A DNA stretch of 34,709 nt, taken from positions 1 to 34,709 of the forward strand of contig CALFCE010000287.1 of NCBI GenBank assembly GCA_937951215.1, in the 5' to 3' direction. Source of the stretch: an uncultured Granulosicoccaceae bacterium. GTDB lineage: Bacteria > Pseudomonadota > Gammaproteobacteria > Granulosicoccales > Granulosicoccaceae. The notes beneath the pieces were generated by a model, which searched no databases, had not been told where the DNA came from, and saw only the letters and a list, made by a program, of their open reading frames with translations. Below, in pieces: positions 7,250-34,709 of this stretch. Made by a program: the position numbers and the translations under genes. Position 1 is the first letter of the stretch; each line of letters opens with the position of its first letter.

Positions 7250-8341
7250 TTACAGCGTATCGCGTGATCGATAAACGATTTGGGTCCTGCCTTCACTATC
7301 CCGCTCAAACAAGGTGTATTGCGACAGCGTGATGCCCTCCATCGCGATATCTATCCGCACCTGAAAGAAGTTCGATACCACATCGTAGCTTCCCGCTTCA
7401 CCAATATTGATGCCATTGCCGCCGCCGGGATCGGCCTCTTCCTCAAATTCGAGCGTGCTCTCATAAGGTGTCAGATCCCGATCTTCGGATAAAGTGCCAC
7501 TGAGATCTTCAGCTTCCAGATCAAAAATGTTTTCGCATACCGGGTAATCCTCATATGCCCCGGTTTCCCAGCGCGACAATTCAGCCCCCAGCGTCTTCAT
7601 ATCGTCAGACAGCGAGGCCAGCAGCTCCGGGGTGGCAGTATTCACATTCAAGGGCACAGGCCCGCCGACAGTTGGTAACGCCGAAATATGCGGCAATAAC
7701 AACTCGTAATCTGCCCTTTCTTCCTCAACGCCTGGATTGAATCCCTTTACTAACTGTAGTTCGCTTACGCTGAGAAAGCTTGAATTTGAGGTGCGGTAGG
7801 GCACTTCCAGACCGGTATAGAAGTCATCCTCAGCCCCGTCCGGTGTCATCGCATTGACATCTTCATCTATCCAGTCTACTACGGCCTGCGCTTTGGCCGC
7901 GGCAATATTGAGTTCTCGTAACAGCCGCTCAAACTGCTCAAAATACGGCTGACTCAGCTTCCCTTCGCGATCAGTCAGGTTATTAAGATTGAATTTACCC
8001 TGCATATCAACAACACAGCCGGACAAGGTCGCATCGTTTATCGGTACCGGGGGCAGGGTTTGTGCCCAATCATCATCCAGTGAATCCGAATTGTTTCGAT
8101 CAGCGGCAGCAAAATCCCGAAACAACACAGCTGCGGCGAAACGCTCACCGCTAATTGCCAGCGAGCGGGCCAGCTGAATACCCGCTTCATTCTGTTCGCG
8201 ACGGATATCAAGTTGTTGCTGACCTGTCATGCTGGTCACCATAATCGTCGACAGAGCGATGACCAGCAGGACGGTGATGACCGCGATACCGTGCTGCCGT
8301 TGTGTACTTTTATTTTGTGATTGCGAAGGCATAGCGATCAC
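7250..8341 (-). CDS. gspK: Type II secretion system minor pseudopilin GspK
   Basis: The 363-residue product is the large minor pseudopilin that caps the pseudopilus tip with GspI and GspJ. It has a short basic leader ending in QRQHG, followed by a hydrophobic helix (AVITVLLVIALSTIMVTSM), then a large globular part. As in other GspK proteins, the mature N-terminus lacks the Glu at position 5 used by the other pseudopilins. The GTG start at 8341 touches the last base of the gspJ stop; an ATG three codons in (8332) is an equally good start. Acidic loops such as DWIDEDVNAMTPDGAEDDFY fit the family's calcium-binding region. Confidence 0.92.
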   Translation of the reverse strand: MIAMPSQSQNKSTQRQHGIAVITVLLVIALSTIMVTSMTGQQQLDIRREQNEAGIQLARSLAISGERFAAAVLFRDFAAADRNNSDSLDDDWAQTLPPVPINDATLSGCVVDMQGKFNLNNLTDREGKLSQPYFEQFERLLRELNIAAAKAQAVVDWIDEDVNAMTPDGAEDDFYTGLEVPYRTSNSSFLSVSELQLVKGFNPGVEEERADYELLLPHISALPTVGGPVPLNVNTATPELLASLSDDMKTLGAELSRWETGAYEDYPVCENIFDLEAEDLSGTLSEDRDLTPYESTLEFEEEADPGGGNGINIGEAGSYDVVSNFFQVRIDIAMEGITLSQYTLFERDSEGRTQIVYRSRDTL

Positions 8342-20024: not shown

Positions 20025-20264
20025 GGCAGGCAACTCTCCACAAATACTGTTCAGTAACTCTATAGTCTATGCAAATACTGTACAAGAGTCCACCACCCGG
20101 CCGCAGAGGCACAGGCTCAGCTGCGCTTTTGGACCAGGTTCAGCAAAGCGGCCCTGCCCGACCCCGTCGAGGGCTCGGTATCCCGGTTCGCCAGCCAGTA
20201 CGTGGGGCTCTCTGAGCCCAATCCACCGGGCTTTCAATCCACTGGACTTGTGGCGATCCAGTTT

Positions 20265-21452
20265 CTACCCGTTTTGTGGTACCAATTCTTTAATAACCGG
20301 ACGACGACGGCGGCGCGTTTTCGACGGGATCATGTCCCTCATCGATTCCAGTTTGCCGAAACAAAGCAATTTATCTTCTGGCTCAAGAATACGATCAGGC
20401 CTTGGATTGGGGATGACTTTGTTTCCACGATACAGGGTGAGCACATTGATATCTTTTTCCGACAACATGCTGTCCTTTATCGTCACCCCAATAAAATTCG
20501 ATCCCTCTGGAACATAGACCTCAGTCACACCGTATCCTTTGCTGACAGTTAGCCGCTGACGAATATCGATCTCTGGGAAGTCTACCTGGGCAGAGATATA
20601 ATCGATCACTGATCCAGCCACGTCCATTCCGGTAGAGGTCTCTATGCCTTCCAGACCGGGTGAAGAATTAACTTCCATTATCTGGGGGCCTTTTTTACCT
20701 TCCAGCATATCGACGCCCGCAACCCGCAAGCCCAAAATCTGGGAAGCACGGACAGCAGTTTCCTGGTATCTCTCATCCAATTCAACCGCCTCGGCAATAC
20801 CACCCCGATGTACGTTACTGCGAAATTCCTGTCCCTGGGCCGTACGGCGCATTGCCGCCACCACTCGATCCCCAACCACAAAAGCACGAATATCCTTACC
20901 CTTACTCTCGGCAACGAATTTTTGTATCAATACATTCTGTTTCTGGCTCTGCAGCAATTCAATAATTGACTCCGCAGCGCTGACAGTTTCGGCTAACAAC
21001 ACCCCGATACCCTGGGTGCCTTCAATCAACTTGATCACCACCGGTGCTCCACCGACGCGTTCGATGGCAGGCAGGACGTCTTTCTTATCTCTGACAAAGG
21101 TGGTCCTGGGAATACCGATGTGATGTCGGCTTAATATTTGTAAACTCCGCAATTTATCCCGTGAGTTAATGATGCCGTGAGCGGTATTTGCACAGAAAAT
21201 ATCCATTTCCTGAAATTGCCGAACAACAGCTGTGCCATAGTAGGTGATCGATGCGCCGATGCGCGGCAGTACTGCATCGTAAGTACTTAGCGGTTTTTGT
21301 CGAAAATACAGATCGGGGATACCCTCCTGCAGATCGATAGCGAATTTGAGCGTATCGAGCACTTTGACAGTATGACCTCTCTGCAAAGCCGCTTCCTTGA
21401 AACGCCTGGTGCTGTACGACTTTGGACCTCGAGACAGGATTGCCAGTTTCAA
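20265..21452 (-). CDS. rimK: RimK-like ATP-grasp glutamate ligase with C-terminal RCK_C/TrkA_C domain
   Basis: The product has 395 residues, about 95 more than typical RimK (about 300). Residues 1-290 are RimK: preATP-grasp domain (LPRIGASITYYGTAVVRQF), INSRDKLRSLQIL, the ATP-grasp glycine-rich region GTQGIGV, DIRAFVVGDRVVAAM, and metal ligands D248 (VAGVDML), E260 and N262 (IMEVNSSPGLEGIE). RimK adds glutamates to the C-terminus of ribosomal protein S6. Residues about 297-376 look like an RCK_C (TrkA_C) domain (VTEVYVPEGSNFIG, ITVLTL-like NVLTLYRGNKVIP, EDKLLCFGKLESM), a regulatory ligand-binding fold known from ion channels. The start codon is TTG after a GGGAG at a long spacing. The gene is divergent from rimB. 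Confidence 0.9.
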   Translation of the reverse strand: MKLAILSRGPKSYSTRRFKEAALQRGHTVKVLDTLKFAIDLQEGIPDLYFRQKPLSTYDAVLPRIGASITYYGTAVVRQFQEMDIFCANTAHGIINSRDKLRSLQILSRHHIGIPRTTFVRDKKDVLPAIERVGGAPVVIKLIEGTQGIGVLLAETVSAAESIIELLQSQKQNVLIQKFVAESKGKDIRAFVVGDRVVAAMRRTAQGQEFRSNVHRGGIAEAVELDERYQETAVRASQILGLRVAGVDMLEGKKGPQIMEVNSSPGLEGIETSTGMDVAGSVIDYISAQVDFPEIDIRQRLTVSKGYGVTEVYVPEGSNFIGVTIKDSMLSEKDINVLTLYRGNKVIPNPRPDRILEPEDKLLCFGKLESMRDMIPSKTRRRRRPVIKELVPQNG

Positions 21453-21479
21453 ATTAAGTCAAACTCCCTGAATTTTCAA

Positions 21480-21509
21480 ATGCCAGAAATAGTCATTTGG
21501 TATTATAAT
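21480..21509 (+). promoter_or_regulatory. Candidate sigma-70 promoter for rimB
   Basis: ATGCCA (21480-21485, 4 of 6 against TTGACA) and a perfect TATAAT (21504-21509) are spaced by 18 bases, 33 bases upstream of the rimB ATG. TATAAT lies in the palindrome ATTATAAT, so a minus-strand -10 for rimK overlaps it. Confidence 0.5.
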
Positions 21510-21541
21510 TCCCATCAGCAATTCTACACGAGCATCGATCG

Positions 21542-22003
21542 ATGGAAAATTTTTTGACTGTCGGGTGGCGAGAATGGGTTTCATTACCCGAACTCGACAT
21601 TCCTCGTATTAAAACAAAAGTTGATACAGGAGCACGCACATCAGCCCTACACGCATTTGACTTACACCCTTTTACAGAAAACGATGTGCAACGTATACGG
21701 TTCCGCATCCACCCAAAACAACGTGACCGACAAAAAGAACTGGTTTGCATCGCTGATGTTGCTGACAGACGAACGGTAACCAACTCGGGCGGACAAAGTG
21801 AGGTGCGATGGGTAGTATCGACGCTTCTATCCATCGGCATGCACTCATGGCCCATAGAGCTAACACTCACCAATCGAGAAGATATGAAATTTCGTATGCT
21901 ACTGGGCCGTACCGCACTTAACAATCACGCTCTGGTAAATTCATCTGCATCATATTTGATCGGCAAAAAACGCATCAAGCGAAAGCAAGGAACTGGAGAA
22001 TAA
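21542..22003 (+). CDS. rimB: RimB-like retropepsin-type protease (ATP-dependent zinc protease family)
   Basis: This 153-residue protein has the COG4067 hallmark KVDTGARTSALHA (about 26-38), an Asp-Thr-Gly-Ala aspartic-protease-like active site, and later NREDMKFRMLLGRTALNNHALVNSSASYL (read in two parts), matching the second conserved block LLGR.AL. Proteins of this family are annotated as ATP-dependent zinc proteases. In Pseudomonas a member (RimB) works with RimK to trim or control S6 glutamylation. Position next to rimK, divergently, supports that link here. The exact activity is inferred. Confidence 0.85.
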   Translation: MENFLTVGWREWVSLPELDIPRIKTKVDTGARTSALHAFDLHPFTENDVQRIRFRIHPKQRDRQKELVCIADVADRRTVTNSGGQSEVRWVVSTLLSIGMHSWPIELTLTNREDMKFRMLLGRTALNNHALVNSSASYLIGKKRIKRKQGTGE

Positions 22004-22035
22004 CTGCCAACGAATCAAAACCCCAAGTCCAAGGA

Positions 22036-23394
22036 TTACGTCAAAAACAGGCTGGCCAGTCCCAGGAAACTAAAGAAACCGACGACGTCAGTGACCGTTG
22101 TCAGTATTACAGCCCCCGATAAAGCTGGATCGGCCCCTGCCCGTTTTAGTATGAGCGGTATACCCACCCCACACAATGCCGCAACGAAAAGATTTAACAT
22201 CAGAGCTGCGGCGATAACAAGTGCTAATCCAGCATTCTCAAACCATAAATAAACCAGCACTGAAACTACCAATGCCCACACAGCACCATTAAGAATACCG
22301 ACTGTTACTTCCTTACGGGTCAACCAGCGCACATTGCCAGAAGCAATTTGATCAAGTGCCATACCACGAATGGTCAACGTTAACGTTTGGCTGCCGGCAA
22401 TACCTCCCATACTGGCAACCACCGGCATCAGTATCGCTAGAGCCACCAACTGCCCAAGAACAGCCTCAAATTGTGATACCACCCAGGCCGCCAGAAAAAC
22501 TGTCACTAAATTGATACCCAGCCAAATTCCCCGTCGCTTTGCACTGGGTAAGGCAGCAGCAAACAAATCTTCGTCTTCAGTTAAACCTGCACTTTTCAAT
22601 AGGGCATGGTCTGCTTCTTCTTTTAATACATCGATGACATCGTCAAATGTAATACGTCCAATCAACAACCCCGCCTCATCCACTACCGCGATTGAAATGA
22701 GTTCACGTCGATCAAATATCCCGATAACATCATGTTCCGCCGTATTGACCGATATAGCACCCGTGTCCTCATCCATCCGCTGCTCAACAAGTAAGGCAGG
22801 GTCTCCGGTAACAATCGCACTTATCATCAGCTTCCCTAGATATCTACCCTCATCGTTCACTACCATCAAGGCATCTGTGTTTATCGGAAGAGCATTCTGT
22901 CTGCGAAGCCAGCGAAGTACATCGCCAAGTGTCACCTTCGGCCCTACACTCAGTACATTCAAGCTCATCAGTCGACCAGCGGTACCATGTTCATAGGCAA
23001 GTACACGTTCTACTCGTGCTCGGTTGTCAGCATCGAGGGAATCAAGAATAGTTTCGGATACATCGGCCGGCAATTCATCTATAACCTCAGCCATATCTTC
23101 AGCAGGCATAGCTTGCACCACTGAGACAATATTTTCCTCAGCCATGGTGTCGATGATGCTGGCACGAACTTCGTCATGCAGATGCGTCAAGAGGCCCGCC
23201 TTGCGAGGTTCAGGAAACCAGTTCCACAGAATAGCTCTCTGTTCAGGGGGCAGGGATTCAAGCAGATTAGCCAGATCAGTATCACTTAACGACGATAGGT
23301 CGTTTTCCAACTCATGAAGGCACTCTCGCTCGATAGCAGAAAGTGCCAAGGAGACCCACTCCTCACCACGACGAAATTCAGAATTTTGAACCAT
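22036..23394 (-). CDS. mgtE: Magnesium transporter MgtE
   Basis: This 452-residue protein has the MgtE domain order. An N-terminal superhelical Mg-sensing domain (about 25-130: PPEQRAILWNWF, MPAEDMAEVIDELPADV) comes first. Two CBS domains follow (about 135-255: SLNVLSVGPKVTLGDVLRWL; DLISIAVVDEAG-like LISIAVVDEAGLLIGRITFDDV), then five membrane helices (about 285-450). The pore region shows MPVVASMGGIAGSQTLTLTIRG and the DVVGFF motif near the C-terminus, whose Asp binds Mg in the pore. It imports Mg2+ and closes when cytoplasmic Mg is high. It faces rimB convergently, 32 bases apart. Confidence 0.95.
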   Translation of the reverse strand: MVQNSEFRRGEEWVSLALSAIERECLHELENDLSSLSDTDLANLLESLPPEQRAILWNWFPEPRKAGLLTHLHDEVRASIIDTMAEENIVSVVQAMPAEDMAEVIDELPADVSETILDSLDADNRARVERVLAYEHGTAGRLMSLNVLSVGPKVTLGDVLRWLRRQNALPINTDALMVVNDEGRYLGKLMISAIVTGDPALLVEQRMDEDTGAISVNTAEHDVIGIFDRRELISIAVVDEAGLLIGRITFDDVIDVLKEEADHALLKSAGLTEDEDLFAAALPSAKRRGIWLGINLVTVFLAAWVVSQFEAVLGQLVALAILMPVVASMGGIAGSQTLTLTIRGMALDQIASGNVRWLTRKEVTVGILNGAVWALVVSVLVYLWFENAGLALVIAAALMLNLFVAALCGVGIPLILKRAGADPALSGAVILTTVTDVVGFFSFLGLASLFLT

Positions 23395-23483
23395 GATGTT
23401 CTCAATAAATGGACACGGAACTCTGTCCGAATCTGCAAGTTACCTCAGGCTGCGAGGAAGCGACGCAATGATATAGATGAGTG

Positions 23484-23517
23484 GTAAAAAAGGCGATACC
23501 CTGAGTTGGGATTCGCT
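23484..23517 (-). terminator. Candidate rho-independent terminator
   Basis: Read on the minus strand, GCGAAT-CCC-AACTCA-GGG-TATCGC forms a stem with two internal mismatches (23493-23516), followed by CC and a TTTTTT run (23486-23491). It would end the transcript of the upstream STN-like gene after a 3' untranslated part of about 200 bases. Confidence 0.55.
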
Positions 23518-23689
23518 CGATACAAGACTGTTGCTAATCCGCAGAAACGGTGGCGGGTGGCAAGACCCAGCCTCGAGGGGACTTGGAAGAGCGACTTAGC
23601 AAGTTTTCATTCACCTGCTCTTGGGTCAGATCCAACACCACGCGTGCAGAGAACTTACAGGTTTTTGGCTAGTGGCGCGCAAAGAGAAA

Positions 23690-24199
23690 CTATTGACTAA
23701 CAATTGTTGGCTGCTGTTCAACTGACTCAATAAATTCCGTACTGGCAGGTTGAGTATCAGTTTGAATTCCCGCCGATTGATCCGGCTCGACACCCTGATC
23801 GTCACTGATAATTTCGTCGGCTGGTTCACCGGAAGGGAGATTGGGATTCGCACCACCCGAGCTGTCGTCGTCGAGTAGAAAGACGATCTCGACGATTTCT
23901 TCAACATCACCCAGTTTTTTTCGCACCAACACTGAATTCTGTGTAATTTTGGGTATGGCTGTTTCAAGCGATTCCTGAAAAATACTCAGGCTCAATGGCT
24001 TATCCTGACCATCAGTTGTCGTCACCGGTATCCCGAGAACTCTGGATAATTCAGCTGCCAGCTGAATTATTGGCACCCCTACAGCTTCAACGGAGAGTTG
24101 CTTATTCTGATACTCCAGAGTCGAGATCCCATTAGCGTGGGTTGTTACTGACACCATAGCGAAAGCAACAGGAACATACCATCGATTGAGATGAAACAT
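23690..24199 (-). CDS. Small secreted protein with STN-like domain (unknown function)
   Basis: The product has 169 residues from ATG 24199, which has AAGG nine bases upstream (a GTG three codons before lacks one). Residues 1-23 are a signal peptide ending near THA. Residues about 33-92 resemble a secretin/TonB short N-terminal (STN) domain: LSVEAVGVPIIQLAAELSRV, IPVTTTDGQDKPLSL and SLETAIPKI. The rest is acidic, Ser/Pro/Asp/Glu-rich and probably disordered. STN domains normally sit at the N-terminus of secretins or TonB receptors; a free-standing one is unusual. No secretin is next to it. The family match is by pattern only. Confidence 0.6.
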   Translation of the reverse strand: MFHLNRWYVPVAFAMVSVTTHANGISTLEYQNKQLSVEAVGVPIIQLAAELSRVLGIPVTTTDGQDKPLSLSIFQESLETAIPKITQNSVLVRKKLGDVEEIVEIVFLLDDDSSGGANPNLPSGEPADEIISDDQGVEPDQSAGIQTDTQPASTEFIESVEQQPTIVSQ

Positions 24200-24517
24200 T
24201 GAACACACCTTGAGAAGAGCCGATCGATTGAGCCGCGGCGGAAATCCCGGCCCACCAATTTTGGATCATGGAACAAATGGGCAAAACCCTCATACAACTA
24301 TTGCTGACCACTTAGCTTGATACCGAACCCTCGGAATCGATTTTAGCCAAAGGTGTCATAACCAGTGCAAAAGCACCTGAAAGTACTTATAAGTAAACTC
24401 AGTAGCCCTGTCATCCTAAAGAATCATATTATGTGCAATCCGTAATTGAATCATAGTAACGGGTTCAAGTTAGGGTGCTGGGCCAAAAATACAAGACTTT
24501 AATCATCGGAGCCTCTA
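24200..24517. other. Divergent intergenic region upstream of the STN-like and HdfR-like genes
   Basis: No gene is seen. It should contain both divergent promoters. The 11-base near-repeat GAATCATATTA / GAATCATAGTA (around 24421 and 24450) lies about 70 bases before the LysR start. It could be part of an autoregulatory LysR site, but no T-N11-A dyad is clear. Confidence 0.4.
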
Positions 24518-25375
24518 TTGGATATCGATACATTAAGAACGTTTCTCGAGCTGGTAAAGCATCGGCATTTTGGCAAAACTGCTGAAACATTATGCGTCAC
24601 CCAATCTGCAGTCAGCACTCGGATTCGCCAGATAGAACAAATTCTGGGAGTGCAGCTTTTTCTACGAGAACCCCGCAACATTCAGCTAACCGATGCCGCC
24701 CGCAAACTTATCCCCTACGCGGAAACCATCGTGACTACCTGGGAACGAGCGACCCAGCAGGTAGTCGATACCGAGGGCGACATATTTACAGTGAGCCTGG
24801 GCTCGGTCGGGAGCTTTTGGGATTCTGTAATGCAACACTGGTTCAACGAGTTTGTGGCATCCACCACCACCACTCGATTTCTGGTCGAACTGGAATCAAA
24901 CAAAACTCTCTCAGACAAAATCATTGCGCGCACTTTAGATGTCGCTTTTCTTTACGATCCACCCGAAGTCGCTCCCGTGAAAATCCTGAAAATTCACGAT
25001 CTTGCTCTCAGGCTATATACAACCTACGACAAACATCTCACGCTTACGGAAATTCTCAACAAACGGTATATCCTTGTGGATTGGGGTAATCGCTTCTTGT
25101 CTGAACATCATCGTCTGCTTAACGAAACCGTCTCACCAGTCGCCAAAGTGGGGCAGGGTCGAATTGCACTGAACACAATGCTACACACTGAGGGTTCTGC
25201 TTATTTACCTGAACCTCTGGCCACATCACATGATCTCAACGGCAGGTGCAGGCTTGTAGAGGATGCCCCGGTATTCAGACGTGAAGCATTTGCCATTTAT
25301 CGTGATGACAATGTTGATAGAGAAGTCATAGAGCAGGTAGTCTGCAGACTGAGAGCCTATCTCGAAAAGCCCTGA
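24518..25375 (+). CDS. HdfR-like LysR-family regulator
   Basis: This 285-residue regulator resembles HdfR. The N-terminus MDIDTLRTFLELVKHRHFG, AAETL-like KTAETLCVTQSAVSTRIRQ and LIPYAETIVTTWERA follow HdfR closely, including the length of the linker helix. HdfR in enterics controls flhDC and other genes, but no motility genes are near. The start codon is TTG 24518, with GGAG six bases upstream (24508-24511). It stands apart from the minus-strand STN gene by a 318-base divergent region. Target genes are unknown. Confidence 0.85.
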   Translation: MDIDTLRTFLELVKHRHFGKTAETLCVTQSAVSTRIRQIEQILGVQLFLREPRNIQLTDAARKLIPYAETIVTTWERATQQVVDTEGDIFTVSLGSVGSFWDSVMQHWFNEFVASTTTTRFLVELESNKTLSDKIIARTLDVAFLYDPPEVAPVKILKIHDLALRLYTTYDKHLTLTEILNKRYILVDWGNRFLSEHHRLLNETVSPVAKVGQGRIALNTMLHTEGSAYLPEPLATSHDLNGRCRLVEDAPVFRREAFAIYRDDNVDREVIEQVVCRLRAYLEKP

Positions 25376-25608
25376 CAGTTGGTGTCAGCTCTAGCGGCTG
25401 CGTCAACCTCGCTGGTATCACCACGATTTTCCTCCTCGACAGGCGTGACCCAGGCTACTTGCCCTGGAAGCCCTAGATTCAGGTAGGGTTTCTTGCGATA
25501 CAACGCGGTGGAGGAACGCTTTCTGACTAAAACAATCGACGTCAGGTTTTTAAAAATCTGTTCGAAATCAAAACGATAAAAAGACACTTCAATAGAGATG
25601 CTGTTCAT
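25357..25608 (-). CDS. Doubtful small ORF convergent with the HdfR-like gene
   Basis: An 83-codon ATG frame overlaps the 3' end of the HdfR-like gene by 19 bases. The sequence contains YLNLGLPGQVAWVTPVEEE, a protein-like stretch, but I recognise no family. No Shine-Dalgarno precedes the ATG (TAATAAG only). It could be a small protein or chance. Confidence 0.25.
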   Translation of the reverse strand: MNSISIEVSFYRFDFEQIFKNLTSIVLVRKRSSTALYRKKPYLNLGLPGQVAWVTPVEEENRGDTSEVDAAARADTNCQGFSR

Positions 25609-26016
25609 CTTATTACAATAACTCGATACCTAAAGATAATCAGTAATTCCGCAGAAACAAAAGCTGTCGATCTTGCACCGTACAAGAACAAATGTCATCG
25701 CGAGCCGTTGCTGATTATTGATCTTATGGGTTACTCAAACGGCATGGGAATAATGCTGGTTTAAAGCAATTTTTTCAATCCGTTTTACTGATCAATTCGA
25801 TCAAAATATATCATCGCAAACACTGATTTTCGACTCTATAGTGCCTTAAGGGAGCGTATCCTTACGCACCTCGCTGCAATGCTTCTGGTGCTGCTTCATA
25901 TGAAGTAATTATTGTTTACTTCTGCTGCCCCGTTAACAATTTGTAGTGAAAAAAAACAATTGCGTAGCCGAAAAAAGAAGCGGCAGGCATAGTAAACCTG
26001 TGTGGAGAAAGAGATC
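25609..26016 (+). other. Intergenic region upstream of the small charged protein
   Basis: About 400 bases carry no gene I can support. They are AT-rich in the middle, with a small perfect dyad TGATC-AATTC-GATCA at 25789-25803 and a TATAGT hexamer at 25837-25842 that may be a -10 element, though no good -35 lies before it. If that promoter is used, the next gene has a leader of about 170 bases. Confidence 0.35.
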
Positions 26017-26274
26017 ATGGGTAACTCGATTAAAAGACAAAGAACAGACAACTACGATTCTATTTACGACGACTATTTTTCTGAAGAGGATATACCCGAT
26101 TTAGAACTGGACGAACTCTTGAATGGTAATCAGCGAACAAAAAAGTCACGTAAGAAGAAAGGCGGGAACGTTTTGAACAACAAACGAAACAACCGCACAA
26201 GTTCAATGAAATTGCCTCACGGATGGGAGGATTTTGACTATGGACACGCTGAAGATTACAGATACGACGATTGA
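26017..26274 (+). CDS. Small highly charged protein of unknown function
   Basis: The product has 85 residues from ATG 26017 (GAGAAAGAG upstream; a GTG at 26002 is the longer option). It is acidic at both ends (YDSIYDDYFSEEDIPDLELD and EDFDYGHAEDYRYDD) with a lysine/arginine-rich middle (KKSRKKKGG, NNKRNNRTS). It has no signal peptide or membrane segment and is likely disordered. A good terminator follows at once, which supports a real transcribed gene. I do not recognise the family. Confidence 0.65.
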   Translation: MGNSIKRQRTDNYDSIYDDYFSEEDIPDLELDELLNGNQRTKKSRKKKGGNVLNNKRNNRTSSMKLPHGWEDFDYGHAEDYRYDD

Positions 26275-26290
26275 CTCCATATAGGGCGAC

Positions 26291-26333
26291 AGGCAACTTA
26301 CTCACCGCTGCGTGGGTAAGTTGCCTTTACACA
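26291..26333 (+). terminator. Hairpin terminator after the small charged protein
   Basis: AGGCAACTTAC and GTAAGTTGCCT form a perfect 11-bp stem (26291-26301 and 26316-26326) with a 14-base loop that can extend the stem (CTCAC/GTGGG). A short TTAC follows, so the T-run is weak on the plus strand. On the minus strand the tail is also weak. Confidence 0.6.
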
Positions 26334-26479
26334 TTGCGGTAGGCGGCAATAGTCAACCAAATATTATTTTGATTTACTTTCTCGCATCATCCGCTGTGGG
26401 CTCTTGCAACCTCGCAAGCTAACAACCCGGTTCGCATACACTTAATCGGGCCAGGACATACTAGATTCTCCCGATAAAT

Positions 26480-27721
26480 CTATCGAGCAGGTTCTCCATC
26501 ATCTGGTGTAATAACAACTGTCTCGGTGGTAGTACGCAAAGGTGTTGCGATCACGAAAGAAGTCTTCTCCTCTTCAACAACACTGGCTCGCCGCGTCATG
26601 CGCCAGGCGGTGAAAATGATCAGACAGGTGTGCGGTACAATAGTGGTTAAAAACAATCCCGACGGCCCCAGAGTAGACATCGCTCCACCGGCAAAAATTG
26701 GGCCCACCATACTCCCTATACCAAACAAAAGAAGCAACCCGCCACTGGTACGTACGAAGTCATTTGGAGGAGCGTGGTCATTGGCATGCGCAACCGCCAC
26801 TGGATACAGAGCAAAAATAGCCGCACCGAACAGAGAAATTGCCGGTATCGCAGATTGCATCGTTTGAGGCTGATGAAGAATAAATACAAGATCACCGGCG
26901 ACTGCAACGAGCGCGACACCTATCAGAACCAGTCGACGATCACTCCGGTCTGAAACGAAACCGACCGGGAGCTGGGCAAGAGCCCCTGCCAGTATCGGCA
27001 AACTCATAAACAGGGATACCGATGCGAGGGTGAAACCGGAATTTTTAGCATAAACGGCACCGAGCGTGCCGAAGGCACTATTTGATACGCCGATAAGAAA
27101 TACTGCCACGACGGACACTGGTGAGTTTAGCCAAAGCGCACGAATATCAAGCCTGGCTCTCACTAGGGGTTGCGGCTGGCTTGAAGTTGAAATAGCGGTG
27201 GGGACAAGCGCCAAACAGTAAAAAACTGCTGCAATGACAAAAAAATGATAGCTGTTGGTATCTCCCAGATTGAGTGACAACTGACCAATAGTGCTCGCAG
27301 CAAGATTTACCATCGTGTAAACGCCAAACACCATGCCTCGAGTGTTGGCCTCGCTGCGCTCATTCAGCCAGCTTTCAACAATCATGGCCGCACCAGCGAA
27401 AGCAAAACCCGCGAACGCGCGAAACAGTATCCACGAGACCGGAGTCATGATGAGTAATGACATGAGGACAGACAATGCCGCCAGAGCTGCCATCGCGCCA
27501 AAAGAACGCACGTGACCAACCCGCGACACCAGAACAGGAACCCATATACACCCAAGAACGTAACCCAAAGCCCAGCCGGTACCCAGCAGACCCAGAGACA
27601 GCGCAGAATATCCTTCAGCAGCACCCCTGACAGGCAGAATAAGCCCGTTCACTCCACCTGCTAACAGCAGGAAGGCCGACCCTGCCAAAAGAGCCCCGAT
27701 GGGCATGAGATGCCTGGTCAT
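26480..27721 (-). CDS. MFS transporter, YcaD/UMF2-like
   Basis: This 413-residue protein has 12 predicted membrane helices and the MFS layout. The conserved loop 2-3 is VPVLVSRVGHVRSFG and the second-half equivalent is GFVSDRSDRRLVLIG. The stretch FRAFAGFAFAGAAMIVESWL with LNERSEANTRG fits the YcaD-like (UMF2) group. The C-terminal 40 residues are hydrophilic and Thr/Val/Glu-rich. Substrate cannot be predicted. The ATG at 27721 is used; another ATG at 27706 has a slightly better upstream AGG. Confidence 0.88.
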   Translation of the reverse strand: MTRHLMPIGALLAGSAFLLLAGGVNGLILPVRGAAEGYSALSLGLLGTGWALGYVLGCIWVPVLVSRVGHVRSFGAMAALAALSVLMSLLIMTPVSWILFRAFAGFAFAGAAMIVESWLNERSEANTRGMVFGVYTMVNLAASTIGQLSLNLGDTNSYHFFVIAAVFYCLALVPTAISTSSQPQPLVRARLDIRALWLNSPVSVVAVFLIGVSNSAFGTLGAVYAKNSGFTLASVSLFMSLPILAGALAQLPVGFVSDRSDRRLVLIGVALVAVAGDLVFILHQPQTMQSAIPAISLFGAAIFALYPVAVAHANDHAPPNDFVRTSGGLLLLFGIGSMVGPIFAGGAMSTLGPSGLFLTTIVPHTCLIIFTAWRMTRRASVVEEEKTSFVIATPLRTTTETVVITPDDGEPAR

Positions 27722-27947
27722 GATATGTACTTAGTTGGTCGATTGGACGCGATTTTCGCATTCATCAAAGAATTGGGACAAGCCTTAAGTTGCGCAAACT
27801 CTTCAAACACATCCATTAATCAAGTAACACAACCTCAATCAAAGGCTATTGCTCGAAAAATTAACGGATACCCCAAAATGGATGAACAGAAGTTTAGTCT
27901 TTACAATCAGTCACCACGGTTCGCCCCCAACACACCCCGCCATTTGC

Positions 27948-28403
27948 TTAAGCGCTAGCGCAGCTGTCGCAGAGGCAATTGAACTCCAGCTGCTCGCTGA
28001 CCAGATGAAAACACGCTGCCGTCACCTGGCGCTTGAGAGAATTCATGGTTGAGCGACTGATACTGAACTCCTTGACGCTCTGACAATCCGTGCAAATCAG
28101 AAACTGTGGTACCTTATGCTCATGATCACAGGTGATATGCCTGCAGGCTACGTAACGCTTGGCCAAGTTGAGTTTGTGCACCAGCTGCTGCTGCTCCAGA
28201 AACTCCAGGATGCGATAAACCGACATGGCGGCAAACTTCTCGTCATAGGTTTCATTGCAGTAGTCAACCAGCTCATAGGCTGACAGCGCACGATCTGATT
28301 GCAGCAAACCACTTAACACTTGTTTTCGTTTCTCCGTCAGCCGACTTCCATTAGCACGGCATTGCTCGTCAGCAGCTTTTAACACGTGTTGCAGATTGGC
28401 CAT
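27948..28403 (-). CDS. zur: Zur-like Fur-family zinc-responsive regulator
   Basis: This 151-residue Fur-family protein starts at ATG 28403, with AAGG eight bases upstream (the frame extends three codons to a GTG). An N-terminal winged helix (about 20-85: RLTEKRKQVLSGLLQSD, MSVYRILEFLEQQQLVHKL) is followed by a metal-binding dimer domain. The structural zinc site has CTDC (FLICTDCQSVKEF) and CLCDSC near the C-terminus, and HITCDHEHK supplies His/Cys ligands of the regulatory site. FLIC..C...KE and the C-terminal C..C arrangement favour Zur over Fur or PerR. No zinc-uptake genes are nearby. Confidence 0.85.
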   Translation of the reverse strand: MANLQHVLKAADEQCRANGSRLTEKRKQVLSGLLQSDRALSAYELVDYCNETYDEKFAAMSVYRILEFLEQQQLVHKLNLAKRYVACRHITCDHEHKVPQFLICTDCQSVKEFSISRSTMNSLKRQVTAACFHLVSEQLEFNCLCDSCASA

Positions 28404-28432
28404 TGCCATCACCTTAAAAAAACAGCTTCATA

Positions 28433-28454
28433 ATGATATGTTGTATCATATCAT
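28433..28454 (-). promoter_or_regulatory. Perfect dyad upstream of zur (candidate Zur operator)
   Basis: ATGATATG-TTGTAT-CATATCAT is a perfect 8+8 inverted repeat with a 6-base spacer, 30 bases before the zur ATG. AT-rich dyads of about 20 bases are the usual Zur targets, so autorepression is likely. The consensus here differs from the enteric one (GTTATA core), so this is inference. Confidence 0.5.
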
Positions 28455-28513
28455 ATCAGTTCAGTACTCCCCGCTAACGGGGGCGTATTCCCTCAATACC
28501 CGATGAAAACCGA

Positions 28514-28555
28514 GGTGATTTTTGCATTAACTCATCTGCAACCTCCCCTTCAGCC
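28514..28555 (+). mobile_element. Solo end of an IS6-like element
   Basis: This 42-base stretch matches 34077-34118 with four mismatches and the same orientation. At 34077 the sequence leads into a broken IS6-family transposase, so this copy is a left-over IS end. No transposase follows here; 10 bases later comes the stop of the copper-cluster cupredoxin gene. It marks one border of the copper cluster. Confidence 0.65.
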
Positions 28556-28565
28556 TAGTACGTTG

Positions 28566-29078
28566 CTATAAAACTTTTATGATGCCTTTCATTCCCGCTT
28601 CAAAGTGACCGGGTTGCAAACACGCGAAATCCACATTTCCGCTCTCTGTGAATTTCCAGATCAACTCTCCGCTTTCTGAAGCATCAAGCTGCAACATATT
28701 GGGTTCTTCGTGCTCCATGCCAGGAAACTTTTGCATCATCTTGGCATGCTCCATCAGGTATTCAGATTTCCCAATAACCATCTCATGTTTAAGCACGCCA
28801 TCGTTAGCCAATTCAAACCGTATTGTTTCGCCTGCTTTTACATCGATGTTACCCGGCATAAAGCTCATATCGTCACTCATGGTTACGGTAACTGTTCTGT
28901 CAACCTCATGTGCAAGGCCTGGCTTACCGACAAGATCCTCTGAGTGATGTCCATCGCCTGAATCATGTTGATGATCATCATGGGTCATATGCCCGTTGCA
29001 AGACACAAGTAAACTTGCAAGAATCAAAGTTACGGAGGGTCGGAAAGGGTATTTTGGTATAGATCTATATTTACTCAT
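28566..29078 (-). CDS. Cupredoxin-domain lipoprotein, Met/His-rich
   Basis: The product has 170 residues from ATG 29078 (upstream ATG 29093 or TTG 29123 possible; none has a clear ribosome site). Lipobox LLVSC sets the acylated Cys at 27. A His-rich linker follows (GHMTHDDHQHDSGDGHH). The cupredoxin domain (about 65-170) has type 1 copper ligands: His in LKHEMVIG, and Cys, His and Met in CLQPGHFEAGM. Between them is an insert rich in Met, His and Glu (EHAKMMQKFPGMEHEEP) that could bind more copper. It is a periplasm-facing copper-binding or electron-transfer protein. It is the last gene of the copper operon. Confidence 0.85.
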   Translation of the reverse strand: MSKYRSIPKYPFRPSVTLILASLLVSCNGHMTHDDHQHDSGDGHHSEDLVGKPGLAHEVDRTVTVTMSDDMSFMPGNIDVKAGETIRFELANDGVLKHEMVIGKSEYLMEHAKMMQKFPGMEHEEPNMLQLDASESGELIWKFTESGNVDFACLQPGHFEAGMKGIIKVL

Positions 29079-29125
29079 GATGCTTGTTCTCATATTGATT
29101 GTATTAAGCCACTGATCTGTCAAAA

Positions 29126-29620
29126 TCAGTTAACGACAACCGAACCTTTCATACCGGCATCAAAATGCCCCGGCAACAAACATCCAAACTCGAAAGATCC
29201 ACTTTCGGAAAACTGCCACAGGATTTCCATAGTCTTGCCAGGATCAACGTGGGCCATATAGGGCTCTTCATGTTCCATATTGGGAAATTTCAGCATCATC
29301 TCGGCGTGTTCTTTGAGCAAATCAGCCGTACCAAGAACGAACTCATGCTGGAGTTGCCCGCTATTGGTTACAAGAAACTTGATCGTTTCACCCGCAGAGA
29401 CCTCAATAGTACTTGGCGTAAAACGCATGCTGTCAGCCATATCCACTTCTATGGTTCTATCTGCCTTAAGCGCTGGGTCATAGGATCCAAATTCTGTACT
29501 TACCGCATCGTACTCGAGAGTTTCCGAATCCTTATCGTGTTTCTTTTCTCCATGCGCGTGAGCGTTTGTAGCCATTGATACGACGAATAAGAACGCAATA
29601 GCTTTCTGAATGGTATTCAT
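29126..29620 (-). CDS. Periplasmic cupredoxin-domain protein, paralogue of the next gene
   Basis: The product has 164 residues from ATG 29620, chosen because GAGGAA lies eight bases upstream (an ATG five codons earlier overlaps that site). A signal peptide ends at NAHA. The mature part starts His-rich (HGEKKHDKD). The domain mirrors that of the downstream gene: ligands in LQHEFVLG and CLLPGHFDAGM, and an insert EHAEMMLKFPNMEHEEP. The two arose by tandem duplication; this one is soluble while the other is a lipoprotein. It is probably a periplasmic copper carrier. Confidence 0.87.
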   Translation of the reverse strand: MNTIQKAIAFLFVVSMATNAHAHGEKKHDKDSETLEYDAVSTEFGSYDPALKADRTIEVDMADSMRFTPSTIEVSAGETIKFLVTNSGQLQHEFVLGTADLLKEHAEMMLKFPNMEHEEPYMAHVDPGKTMEILWQFSESGSFEFGCLLPGHFDAGMKGSVVVN

Positions 29621-29643
29621 TGGAAATTTCCTCATCTAAAGTG

Positions 29644-29952
29644 TTATTCAGCTTTCTCTATGCTGACGATCATCATTTTTCCGTCTTTCTCTATGACAGT
29701 GAATGCCACTTTGTCTCCTTTTTTGTACTGACTGATGTCCGTACCTTCTTCAGTCCGGAAAACCATCGTCATTCCCGGCATGTCGAGGTTCGGGATGGGG
29801 TCGTGCTTGATGGTTATTTTCCCTGAATCCGGCTTTACACGTTTTACCTCTCCAGTCACTTGTGGCAGTTCACTGTCAGACAGCACAGGGAACGAAAACA
29901 GTAGCGATACAATGAGAAAAAGCTTAGAAATAGATTTTTTTGCAAAAGACAT
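29644..29952 (-). CDS. CusF-like periplasmic copper-binding protein
   Basis: This 102-residue protein has a signal peptide (about 1-25, ending PVLSDS) and a CusF/CusB-C type small beta barrel: TGEVKRVKPDSGKITIKHDPIPNL, then the copper-binding core DMPGMTMVFR with the Met residues and the upstream His that bind Cu(I) in CusF, and GDKVAFTVIEKDGKMMI. CusF normally hands Cu(I) to the CusCBA pump, but no CusA or CusB gene is here; the likely partners are the TolC protein and the oxidase of this operon. It lies 38 bases after the oxidase gene. Confidence 0.9.
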   Translation of the reverse strand: MSFAKKSISKLFLIVSLLFSFPVLSDSELPQVTGEVKRVKPDSGKITIKHDPIPNLDMPGMTMVFRTEEGTDISQYKKGDKVAFTVIEKDGKMMIVSIEKAE

Positions 29953-29990
29953 TGATTAACTCCAGTTATGTAGTGGTGATTGTATGGAGG

Positions 29991-31547
29991 CTACAGAGCC
30001 TCCAGAAGATTAGTGCTGATGTAACCGACAATTCCCCGGGAATTCACTTGTGTCCATTTTCCTGATCGGTTTAACACACTAACGGCTTCACCTTTCGGTA
30101 TAGCGTGAATAATGTCGGCACCTACGGAGGGGCCTGAACGAATATTGCTCCAATAACTTCTGGCTTTCATTCTGGTCTTACCGACAGCACCTGTCGGTGT
30201 TTTATCTGCAAGAGGCATTGATTTTCCATTCGATCCTGAAGATCTGCTGACAATGGGTACATCATGGCCTTCATACTCGAACGAAACGGTTCTTTCCGGA
30301 TGGTCGTACCACCCAGGATCGGAGTAGTCACCCGGCTTTTGATCTTTACGGACTTTCACAATCGACAACATGCCACCCATTTCAATGGAGCCGAAGGGCC
30401 CATCACCTGTCATCATCGGGGCAGTATTGTCAGGCAAGGGCATTTCCATCTCGGTCATGTCTGCCATCCCTCGTTCACTCATAACCATGTAATCGGGTAT
30501 AAGATCGGTTATTTGTTTAGCGACCTTGCTGTGATCTACACCAATCAGCGTGGGAACATTGTGTCCCATGGCATTCATTGTGTGATGACTTTTGTGGCAA
30601 TGAAATGCCCAGTCGCCCTCCTCATCTGCCAGAAATTCAATCTGTCGCATTTGCCCTACGGCGATATCAGTTGTGACTTCAGGCCAACGTGAACCAGGTT
30701 TAGTCGGACCTCCATCGGTGCCGGTCACTTCAAATTCATGGCCGTGAAGATGTATCGGATGATTGGTCATTGTAAGATTGCCAATCCGAACGCGAACGCG
30801 ATCATTGTGTCTGACGTTCAATGTGTCAATGCCAGGAAAAATACGGCTGTTCCACGCCCACAAATTAAAATCGAGCATGGTCATGATTTTGGGAGTGGCG
30901 CTACCCGGATCGATGTCAAAACCGGCAAGCAAAATACAATAATCACGATCGACTCTGGCAATCTCGTCATATTTTCGGGGATGGGTCACCCATGAACCCA
31001 TCATGCCCATCGCCATCTGGGTCATCTCGTCACCATGAGGGTGATACATAAACGTTCCAGGTCGCCTGGCAGTAAATTCATACACGTATGTTTTACCGGA
31101 AGGGATAGCAGGTTGATTTAATCCTGATACCCCGTCCATCCCGTTCGGCAGGCGCTGTCCATGCCAATGAATACTGGTGTGCTCCGGCAAACGATTGGTG
31201 ACAAATATACGTACTTTGTCGCCTTCAACTACCTCGATAGTCGGCCCCGGTGATTGGCCGTTGTATCCCCACAAGTGTGCAGTGAAGTCCTCAGCCATCT
31301 CCCGAACCACTGGCTCGGCCACAAGATGGAATTCCTTTACGCCATTATTCATGCGCCATGGCAAAGTCCACCCGTTGAGCGTAACCACAGGATCGTATGG
31401 CCGTCCGTTGGGTGGTACCAGCGGCGGCATAGTATCAACTGAATCCTGGTGAACAAGCTCCGGTAAATGAGCTAAAGAATTTTTTGATACGGCGGTAGCT
31501 GCACCGGCAATACCGGCCAGGGCTAAAAATTCTCTACGCGATTTCAT
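29991..31547 (-). CDS. Multicopper oxidase with C-terminal SH3-like domain
   Basis: The product has 518 residues from ATG 31547, preceded by GGGGAAAG; the ORF extends 18 codons further, overlapping the TolC gene, without need. A twin-arginine signal (SRREFLALAGIAG) directs export. Copper motifs are complete: IHWHG, MYHPHGDE, HPIHLHGHEFEVTG and HCHKSHHTMNAMGH, where the Cys, two His and Met form the type 1 site. A His/Met-rich stretch (MVMSERGMADMTEMEMPL) follows. The last 59 residues (about 460-518: NIRSGPSVGADIIHAIPKG, VGYISTNLL) are a bacterial SH3 domain, unusual for this enzyme class. It probably oxidises Cu(I) in the periplasm. Confidence 0.9.
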   Translation of the reverse strand: MKSRREFLALAGIAGAATAVSKNSLAHLPELVHQDSVDTMPPLVPPNGRPYDPVVTLNGWTLPWRMNNGVKEFHLVAEPVVREMAEDFTAHLWGYNGQSPGPTIEVVEGDKVRIFVTNRLPEHTSIHWHGQRLPNGMDGVSGLNQPAIPSGKTYVYEFTARRPGTFMYHPHGDEMTQMAMGMMGSWVTHPRKYDEIARVDRDYCILLAGFDIDPGSATPKIMTMLDFNLWAWNSRIFPGIDTLNVRHNDRVRVRIGNLTMTNHPIHLHGHEFEVTGTDGGPTKPGSRWPEVTTDIAVGQMRQIEFLADEEGDWAFHCHKSHHTMNAMGHNVPTLIGVDHSKVAKQITDLIPDYMVMSERGMADMTEMEMPLPDNTAPMMTGDGPFGSIEMGGMLSIVKVRKDQKPGDYSDPGWYDHPERTVSFEYEGHDVPIVSRSSGSNGKSMPLADKTPTGAVGKTRMKARSYWSNIRSGPSVGADIIHAIPKGEAVSVLNRSGKWTQVNSRGIVGYISTNLLEAL

Positions 31548-31575
31548 ATCTTTCCCCGAAACGATAAATTGATCA

Positions 31576-32982
31576 TTAGTGACCTGCTCCGCCTTCATCA
31601 CCGCCGGAAGCAGCCATCATGACCTCGGTGCTTGCGGGCCGTCCCACCAGCGATGCTCGAAGCGCCGCATCAGCGAGCCAGAACTGACCGCTAGCTTCAA
31701 TCGACGATTGGACTGTCTGAATCTGTGCCCTGGAATCTGCCAGTAGCTCAAATACACCGATCAGCATACCGTTGTATTGCAATACACTTTCTTCCGAGAT
31801 GAGCTGTTGTAGCGGTACCACTTCGTCACGATAATGCTTCGCGATTTCGTAATTGGAACGATAGGCGGAATACGCTTCCCGCAAGTGTGATATCGCGGAG
31901 CGGACGACATTCTCGAACGTATTGGATGCCATAAGCGATTTGGCATTTAGACGGTTGCGAACCTGCCCAATGCTTCTGAACAGGGGTAGCTCAATACCCA
32001 ACTCATAGCCACGAGCCGACTCACGCTCGTCGTCGCTCCACACAGTCTCACTGATTGCAGCTATCTCAATATCAGTTATATCACCAAGCAGTTTCAAGCC
32101 TTGGTGCATTGTTGCCAGCCTGAGGCCTGCCTTTGCCATGTTCACATCCAGACGACTGGACATTGCTGCTCCTGTCGCATCAGGAGCAGCAATGGGTTCT
32201 CCGGGTAAATCAGGCAGTCGAGAAGGTAACTGGAGTTTTGCGGTTTGATCATTATTCAAACCCAATAACCTGATCAACGCTTCACGACTCGCCAAAGCCC
32301 GATGTCGGGCAGCGGTCAGATTGGTTGCGGCATCCGCGTAATACACCTGTTGTCTGGAGCGAGATAAAGCACTGAAGTTTCCGATGGCCTGCATATTGGC
32401 AGCGAGATCCGCGCTAGCTTCTGCACTGGAAAAAACCTGCTCCGCATAGATTGCAAGTTGCTGGGAAACAATAGCGTCAACCCAGGCTTGCCGAACTTGT
32501 GTGACGAGATCAACGGTGTCTGCTGCGAGCGCGACCTGATTGGCCTCAAGCTGTATGGATGCGCCACGTGCCAGCATGGGAAGTCGTAACAGGTCCAATA
32601 ACCCGATAGAGAGTATTCGTGAAATCTCCAGCTCGTGATCAGCACTGACGCGTTCAAAATGGAAAACCGGATTCGGAATACTGCCACTCAATGCAGCACT
32701 TGACGACTCACTCCAGTGATTCGCCAGCATAACTTGAACAGCCGGGCTATTTATCATTGCCAGTTCAACTGCCGCTGTCTGATCCAGCGGCTTACTGAGT
32801 ATCAGCTCAGCCCGCGCATTCGCTAGTTCACGTTGCTTCTGCGTACGCTGCAACTGCAAATTACCGGCGGTGAAGTCTTCCAGATCGTCATTAGCCGTAG
32901 ACAGGGAATCCTGCAGGTTGAAACTCACACAACCAGAAAGCATAAAACCTGTCAGGGCAATTAACCAAAACCGGATAATCAC
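31576..32982 (-). CDS. TolC-family outer-membrane efflux lipoprotein (CusC-like)
   Basis: This 468-residue protein has a lipoprotein signal with lipobox LSGC (Cys 18) and two repeats of TolC-type helical/beta structure (about 70-260 and 280-450), with LAMINSPAVQVMLANHW and LGIELPLFRSIGQVRNRL as conserved anchor regions. The closest pattern is CusC-type outer-membrane channels of metal efflux systems. The C-terminus is rich in Gly and acidic residues (GGDEGGAGH). Its start overlaps the end of the 127-residue unknown gene by four bases; the oxidase begins 28 bases after its stop. No inner-membrane pump or adaptor is encoded beside it. Confidence 0.88.
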   Translation of the reverse strand: MIIRFWLIALTGFMLSGCVSFNLQDSLSTANDDLEDFTAGNLQLQRTQKQRELANARAELILSKPLDQTAAVELAMINSPAVQVMLANHWSESSSAALSGSIPNPVFHFERVSADHELEISRILSIGLLDLLRLPMLARGASIQLEANQVALAADTVDLVTQVRQAWVDAIVSQQLAIYAEQVFSSAEASADLAANMQAIGNFSALSRSRQQVYYADAATNLTAARHRALASREALIRLLGLNNDQTAKLQLPSRLPDLPGEPIAAPDATGAAMSSRLDVNMAKAGLRLATMHQGLKLLGDITDIEIAAISETVWSDDERESARGYELGIELPLFRSIGQVRNRLNAKSLMASNTFENVVRSAISHLREAYSAYRSNYEIAKHYRDEVVPLQQLISEESVLQYNGMLIGVFELLADSRAQIQTVQSSIEASGQFWLADAALRASLVGRPASTEVMMAASGGDEGGAGH

Positions 32983-33362
32983 TCATTATCTCCCGATTGG
33001 ACCGTTGAATCAGGTGTTGCCGCATTCTGGACAAGTTCAAGATAGGCACGCCATCCACCAATCTCACCAACCCTGTCGTTGGCTTCACGCCAGCCGATAT
33101 CCGGCACATGATCGAACGGCACATATTGATTGAATATTGATGAATAACCAATCGGGACAGGCGGGGAAGCAGCGCCTGTTGATTCTTGCTTTTCGGATTC
33201 TGCAACTATGGCACGGTATTCGGCTATATCTTGTTCAGACCACCCCGCCTTTTCTAATTCCTGATCGGTCAAACCCCCAGTCTGTGGGGTTTGAGCAAAT
33301 GTACTGGTTGCCAATAAAAGTAATAATGTCCCCGTAAGAACCGGGGCGGTGTAACGGAACAT
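32979..33362 (-). CDS. Periplasmic protein of unknown function in the copper operon
   Basis: The 127-residue protein has a signal peptide (about 1-23, ending TFA) and a GGAG seven bases before the ATG. A central part rich in E and Q (LTDQELEKAGWSEQDIAEYR) is followed by a compact motif, VPFDHVPDIGWREANDRVGEIGGWRAYLE (residues about 80-109, read as PDIGWREANDRVGEIGGW and RAYLE). I believe this W-R-x-A-N-x-x-V-x-x-I-G-G-W pattern recurs in proteins next to TolC genes of copper clusters, but I cannot check it. It lacks clear metal-binding motifs. It is the first gene of the unit coupled to tolC. Confidence 0.7.
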   Translation of the reverse strand: MFRYTAPVLTGTLLLLLATSTFAQTPQTGGLTDQELEKAGWSEQDIAEYRAIVAESEKQESTGAASPPVPIGYSSIFNQYVPFDHVPDIGWREANDRVGEIGGWRAYLELVQNAATPDSTVQSGDNE

Positions 33363-33551
33363 AAATTATCTCCACGCGGGGGAAACCTTGCAAATCTGAC
33401 TCACTATCGATACCAAACAGGAGCGCCCAAAGGTGTTGCTCTTTGCTGATGAATAGCGTCAAGTTTTTCTGCACACCAATCGGCACTGTTGCCAAACCTG
33501 ATCTGGTAGCGCAATGCTCAACCAGGCACTGATGAACTATCGAAAAAGAAT

Positions 33552-33962
33552 CTAAACAAGACGTGGAGGTTTGAACCGTTTCGTTGGTTCAACAGATGCT
33601 TCATCATCAGCGGTAGCCAGATCTATCTTGTAGCTTAGGTATAGCTGGACGTGATGCTGTCGCACAATGGAGGGAACGGGTTGACTGCAATGTGTTTTAC
33701 AAGCGTCGTGCGCATCACAGAACTCGTTGGAGGGTGTTTCACAACAATCCATGTTGTCAGAAGCTACTTCAAAAACAGGTTGATGCACCATGGTACCGTG
33801 TACATGGTGCGAATTTTCACCCTGCTGATGCGTATGTGTAGATGCCGTAGCCATACCAACAGCTGCTACTAGTGCATTAAGTATCAGTATTGCACAAACC
33901 GATACCAAAACGCATTTGCGCTTCGGGCCTGGTTTTTCCATATTGATATGGCAGTCTCTCAT
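33552..33962 (-). CDS. Cys/His-rich membrane-anchored protein, probably copper-binding
   Basis: The 136-residue product (or 129 from an ATG at 33941) has a basic N-terminus and one hydrophobic segment (about 16-38: VLVSVCAILILNALVAAVG), then a region rich in His and Cys: THTHQQGENSHHVHG, DCCETPSNEFCDAHDACKTHC. This looks like an exported metal-binding protein, and the copper operon downstream supports copper. It may resemble DUF2946-like small proteins, but the pattern is weak. It lies 189 bases before the next gene, so it may be separately transcribed. It has a clear promoter at 33971-33999. Confidence 0.65.
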   Translation of the reverse strand: MRDCHINMEKPGPKRKCVLVSVCAILILNALVAAVGMATASTHTHQQGENSHHVHGTMVHQPVFEVASDNMDCCETPSNEFCDAHDACKTHCSQPVPSIVRQHHVQLYLSYKIDLATADDEASVEPTKRFKPPRLV

Positions 33963-33970
33963 ATAGGTTT

Positions 33971-33999
33971 ATGATAGGCTGGTGTTGGATTAAGTTCAA
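33971..33999 (-). promoter_or_regulatory. Sigma-70-like promoter for the Cys/His-rich gene
   Basis: On the minus strand, TTGAAC (-35, 33994-33999), a 17-base spacer and TATCAT (-10, 33971-33976) end about 10 bases before the ATG at 33962. The optimal spacing and good hexamers support it. No CueR-type dyad lies between the hexamers. Confidence 0.6.
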
Positions 34000-34076
34000 T
34001 AGAAACCGGGAATGTAACCTTATTCTGTCGATCAGATTCAGTGCCAACACTATGACGCGAGAATCAGTAGTTTATT

Positions 34077-34118
34077 GGAGATTGTTGCATTAACCCATCA
34101 GCAACCTCCCCTTCAGCC
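34077..34118 (+). mobile_element. Left end of the IS6-like element
   Basis: This copy of the 42-base repeat (four mismatches to 28514-28555) lies 27 bases before the broken transposase frame. The sequence GGAGATTGTTGCATT resembles the TGTTGCA core of IS6-family terminal repeats. The right end is outside the window. Confidence 0.65.
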
Positions 34119-34144
34119 GACTACAACCAATTGGTTGAACTCTC

Positions 34145-34709
34145 ATGGCTGGATTTCCCTTTAAGCACCACCGCTTCAATCCTGCCACCATGCTCATTGT
34201 TGTGCGATGGTATTGTCGCTTTCCCCTATCTTGTTGAGATGTCTCTGACCTGCTCGCTGAACGCCGTATTCATGTCAGCCCCTCTACCATTAACCGATGG
34301 ATTATCAAGTTTGGCCCTGAAATAGCCACGCGCATTCGAAGGGTACACTACCCCGCGCCAAGCTGAGGCACATCGATGAAACCTATATCCAAGTAACCGT
34401 ATATGGTGCCTCCCACACTTACTCACTGATAAAGAGCTCACCTACCATGCCCTCGTAGAGTCTCTTGAATTCATCCACACTCCAATAGCCTCCTTGAGCA
34501 CATCGTTTCGAAATGGAACAACAATCGCATCGAATCCGACTATACCGCACTCAAACGCATCATCAAACCAACGAAAGGTTTTAAAAAATCTATCCGCTGC
34601 CAAAGCGACAATTCTGGCTATCGAGGCATTCCGAACGATTCAGCGAGGAGGTCTTTTTGAGCTCGCAAACAGCCCGACTGCAGAGGTCGACTTATTAAAT
34701 GAACTTTTT
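34145..34709 (+). pseudogene. IS6-family transposase, broken (partial at right edge)
   Basis: Starting at ATG 34145, translation gives FKHHRFNPATMLIVVRWYCRF, typical of the IS6 N-terminus. An in-frame TGA (34235-34237) lies where the family has an Arg codon (CGA). The same frame continues with DVSDLLAERRIHVSPSTINRW. Then a frameshift leads to HIDETYIQV, which holds the first catalytic Asp. A large part with the second Asp is missing. NNNRIESDYTALKRIIKP follows with the third catalytic residue (Glu), and after another frameshift FRTIQRGGLFELA and EVDLLNELF end the visible part. At least one stop, two frameshifts and a deletion make it inactive. The C-terminus runs to the edge. Confidence 0.9.

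Follow-up and report, generated by a model that had tools for sequence, protein, structure and literature searches.

A copper-resistance operon between two directly oriented IS6-family left ends in an uncultured Granulosicoccaceae bacterium

Toward the right end of the window (the whole 34,709-nucleotide stretch of contig CALFCE010000287.1 that was analysed) lie seven minus-strand open reading frames, five of them with copper or efflux domains, exactly between two copies of a short sequence, as the initial annotation had described. A regulator gene adjoins the left-hand copy (copy 1), and a broken transposase gene follows the right-hand one (copy 2). The features are, from left to right:

27948-28412, minus strand: Fur-family regulator, Zur-like, adjoining copy 1 (PF01475; NF008646, 73 bits with a cut-off of 167)
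28515-28561, plus strand: copy 1, stump of an IS6-family left end, the first 47 bp (88% identity to copy 2 over 48 bases; terminal repeat at 28515-28531)
28566-29123, minus strand: cupredoxin (CopI-like), last gene of the cluster (PF00127; CopI models below cut-off)
29126-29635, minus strand: cupredoxin (CopI-like) (PF00127 and PF13473; CopI models below cut-off)
29644-29952, minus strand: CusF-type periplasmic copper-binding protein (PF11604, 1.3e-25)
29991-31601, minus strand: multicopper oxidase with a C-terminal SH3 domain (PF07732, PF07731, PF08239)
31576-32982, minus strand: TolC/CusC-type outer-membrane efflux protein (PF02321)
32979-33362, minus strand: small protein with no Pfam match, conserved in the copper module (36-58% homologues at the same position in relatives)
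33552-33962, minus strand: small His/Cys-rich protein, first gene of the cluster (no Pfam or NCBIfam match)
34078-34709, plus strand: copy 2, decayed IS6-family element (left end at 34078-34094; right end past the contig end at 34709)
34146-34709, plus strand: broken IS6/IS240 transposase (from translations, PF13610 matches and alignment to the element of genome G038)

The last copper ORF ends at 28566, which reproduces the 10 bases originally reported between it and position 28555, and its protein is homologous to those of relatives almost to its end. At the other end of the cluster, the His/Cys-rich protein was found neither at the relatives' copper loci examined nor on plasmids. The closest relatives of the multicopper oxidase are in genomes G029 (87%), G023 (85%) and G027 (79%), nearly full length; these three matches also cover its SH3 domain, and most other matches in the family stop before it. 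The G+C content of the copper segment is 48%, with no contrast to the rest of the mosaic region in which it lies.

The two copies of the repeat, at 28514-28555 and 34077-34118, have the same orientation and are identical at 38 of 42 bases; the coordinates and the four mismatches given in the initial annotation were thus confirmed, and with 88% identity the match can be followed over 48 bases (28514-28561 and 34077-34124). Against these 38 identities, the best match for the 42-mer in 40 Markov-1 resamples of the window was 25 of 42, and the pair has an E value of 1.4e-9 against the whole genome. The useful relatives for comparison within the family were G038 and G044, which carry IS6-family elements of 815 and 779 bp with inverted ends GGGATTGTTGCATTAAC and GTTAATGCAACAATCCC (one mismatch in G044). 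Positions 34078-34094 match this terminal repeat at 16 of 17 bases and positions 28515-28531 at 15 of 17, and the next best sites in the window (14 and 13 of 17) are located elsewhere. The similarity between the copies starts, to within one base, at the element tip. The transposase after copy 2, which had been called broken and IS6-family, indeed contains frameshifts and in-frame stops and has an internal gap of ~124 bp relative to the G038 element, and the IS240/IS6 DDE domain (PF13610) scored above its cut-off in the genome search as well as in a masked read-through of the broken frame. Given the tip matches to G038 and G044 and the transposase homology after copy 2, we read both repeats as the left ends of one IS6-family element in the same orientation, copy 1 being a stump separated by 4 bases from the stop codon at the end of the copper cluster. 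The reading of the repeats as IS6 ends is well supported.

The element is rare. Searching the whole 4.44 Mb, 414-contig genome with copy 2 and its downstream DNA returned two repeat sites, both in the window, although at ~85% completeness the assembly could be missing further IS copies. A 34-base core of the repeat, allowing at most 3 mismatches, was absent from all 47 other family genomes; the scan covered 48 family genomes including the bacterium's own, and its two sites in total were copy 1 and copy 2. With two copies only in genome and family, a common intergenic repeat unrelated to the IS, which the initial annotation had named as a finding that would overturn its reading, is ruled out as the identity of the 42-mer. 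Exact-pattern scans for the IS end in a genome collection and a viral contig collection gave no match, a transposase-based scan of genome contigs gave no confirmed relative of the element, and a search for the IS DNA in plasmids and 369 class genomes gave no further copy. Tip-like sites on contigs C29 and C116, with 2 mismatches each, were set aside because they occur at about the chance rate by our own estimate and their flanks look, by eye, unlike the IS. The site on C116, at ~7563-7579 (locus L135) and ~70 bases from the contig end, is a possible IS6-like tip, and may be chance.

What is observed, then, is two IS6-family left ends in the same orientation, an operon exactly between them, and a visible transposase that is broken. 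IS6 elements move via cointegrate formation, compound structures formed by them carry the IS in direct repeat, and IS6 pseudo-compound transposons consist of cargo between directly oriented ends (PMC7986276), which agrees with the rule on which the initial annotation had drawn. We consider it somewhat more probable than the alternatives taken together that an IS6-family pseudo-compound transposon or translocatable unit, since decayed, gave rise to the region from 28.5 to 34.7 kb. On this view the copper-resistance operon would once have been flanked by two copies of a single IS6-family element pointing the same way; the left copy would have lost all but its first 47 bp, and with it the DNA immediately beyond the end of the operon, and the right copy would have kept its left end while its transposase was ruined by deletion and frameshifts. 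The IS pair would have delivered the operon to this place, through cointegrate formation or insertion of a translocatable unit, rather than settling around it later. Of the fossil unit first proposed to have brought copper resistance next to zur, the IS6 ends and their direct orientation have held; the acquisition step, delivery of the operon by the IS pair, is one that we infer. Also in favour of this explanation, the copper module is mobile and stands beside this Fur/Zur-like gene in no relative examined, and DNA homology upstream of that gene breaks off shortly before the IS tip, as described below. Against it, the left IS survives as 47 bp only, the right end of copy 2 and any target duplication lie past the end of the contig, similar IS ends are missing from the relatives' copper loci, and the surrounding region is not syntenic with same-genus genomes.

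The arrangement resembles Tn2680, Tn4003 and Tn610 (PMC7986276) in having cargo between what would be two direct copies of one IS6-family element, from a family with terminal inverted repeats and a single DDE transposase. Unlike in those transposons, the cargo here is copper resistance, both copies are degenerate, with the left one reduced to a 47-bp stump, and the flanks that would carry 8-bp target duplications lie outside the readable sequence, the right flank of copy 2 being beyond the contig end and the right part of copy 1 deleted. The case would be an ordinary, old instance of the scar that an IS6-type mobile unit usually leaves.

Alternatively, one could envision two separate insertions of the same IS around a copper operon that was already here, with the same direction arising by chance. 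The copper module, from the small protein at 32979-33362 to the cupredoxins, is present in other surroundings in many genomes of the family, and plasmids carry a similar module. Its neighbours vary among most relatives, although G027 and G031 share theirs and G033 and G003 do so partly, and an IS end matching at least 13 of 17 bases was absent from 11 of 11 relative copper loci. Since the module is found in differing places in many family genomes, with a similar one on plasmids, it is mobile, and since no such IS end occurs at the 11 relative loci, it also moves without this IS, and usually does so. A plasmid of Pseudoalteromonas donghaensis (NZ_CP032092.1) carries genes for an outer-membrane protein, a multicopper oxidase and a cupredoxin in the same order as here; in the window, the order continues with CusF and two cupredoxins and the oxidase carries an SH3 domain at its C terminus, and whereas the plasmid module adjoins an ISL3 transposase, that of the window adjoins IS6 ends. 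The occurrence of the module in varied places without this IS is what two insertions would lead one to expect, a shared orientation is a one-in-two chance, and the copies are not linked by target-duplication evidence. However, no other copy of the element was found in the genome (~85% complete) or the family, and because the element is so rare, a single event is more likely than two hits that happened to bracket one operon exactly. We regard two insertions as unlikely.

The surroundings suggest another possibility. From position 1 to ~20.05 kb the window is collinear with both same-genus genomes, and this synteny is lost from about 20.1 kb rightward (20055-34709). Within the latter part, a RimK-like gene is 92% identical to that of another genus compared with ~55% to the same-genus genomes, and the best match of an MFS gene to the rest of the family does not exceed 39%. 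Because same-genus synteny is lacking from about 20.1 kb, the copper segment is no simple insert in an otherwise known backbone, and its arrival next to the regulator may have been part of the making of a larger patchwork. Under such circumstances a single IS could have sufficed, an IS6-mediated event and later deletions having fused the operon to the IS end by the Fur/Zur-like gene in the course of the patchwork region's build-up. The mosaic would suit such a local rearrangement, as would the left IS stump, which lies right against the end of the last copper gene and marks a deletion junction. Simple adjacent deletions made by IS6 elements leave an intact IS at their junction. This route therefore requires one more deletion, and we hold it to be doubtful to the same degree as two insertions. 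Most improbable of all is a chimeric or misbinned contig whose arrangement is not real, for although the assembly has 414 contigs at 85% completeness and the right side of the contig is in part similar to another genus, gene order over the left 20 kb agrees with that of both same-genus genomes, and the 48-base match between the IS copies, at 88%, is too short and too divergent to confuse an assembler.

IS6-borne gene units are familiar chiefly as carriers of antibiotic resistance in clinical bacteria. A decayed IS6-family unit carrying copper resistance would add an environmental metal-resistance example, would show the decay of such units until a terminal stump alone marks them, and suggests that old transfers missed by transposase searches can be recognised by short IS ends.

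The regulator beside the stump had been called zur. Its membership of the Fur family is borne out by PF01475, and its best NCBIfam match is indeed Zur, but at 73 bits that match is below the model's cut-off, and we have filed it as Fur family, Zur-like. Close homologues (77-81%) are found in other genera; within the genus, G001 has a distant match and G002 has none. A divergent gene for a family 5 extracellular solute-binding protein lies upstream of the homologue in G004 and G021, followed in G004 by ABC-transporter genes, and in the window the IS stump and copper genes occupy this side. DNA homology to G021 upstream of the Fur/Zur-like gene ends at 28456, ~58 bp before the IS tip. Neither the MFS gene nor copper genes were found beside the regulator among the relative loci examined, and no relative examined had the copper module next to this Fur/Zur-like gene; an orthologous cluster in the same place but free of the repeat, which would have argued against the original reading, was therefore not seen in these genomes. 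No empty site was found, and none can be read because no relative examined shares the Fur/Zur-like-MFS neighbourhood.

The minus-strand interval separating the Fur/Zur-like gene from the last copper gene has no listed intrinsic terminator, and its fold z-score of -1.7 is not notable; no promoter-like sites are listed at the IS tips toward the operon, totals being those expected by chance. Because no terminator is listed and both genes are on the minus strand, read-through from the copper operon into the Fur/Zur-like gene is possible. It is conceivable, if distinctly improbable, that, the deletion at the IS end having removed the 3' flank of the operon, copper transcripts cross the stump into the Fur/Zur-like gene and couple the control of zinc genes to copper exposure. 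Upstream of this gene, at 28433-28460, lies an AT-rich palindrome-like sequence (minus strand TGATATGATACAACATATCA), possibly a Zur-type operator, and similar sequences precede the Fur/Zur-like homologues in G032, G004 and G021.
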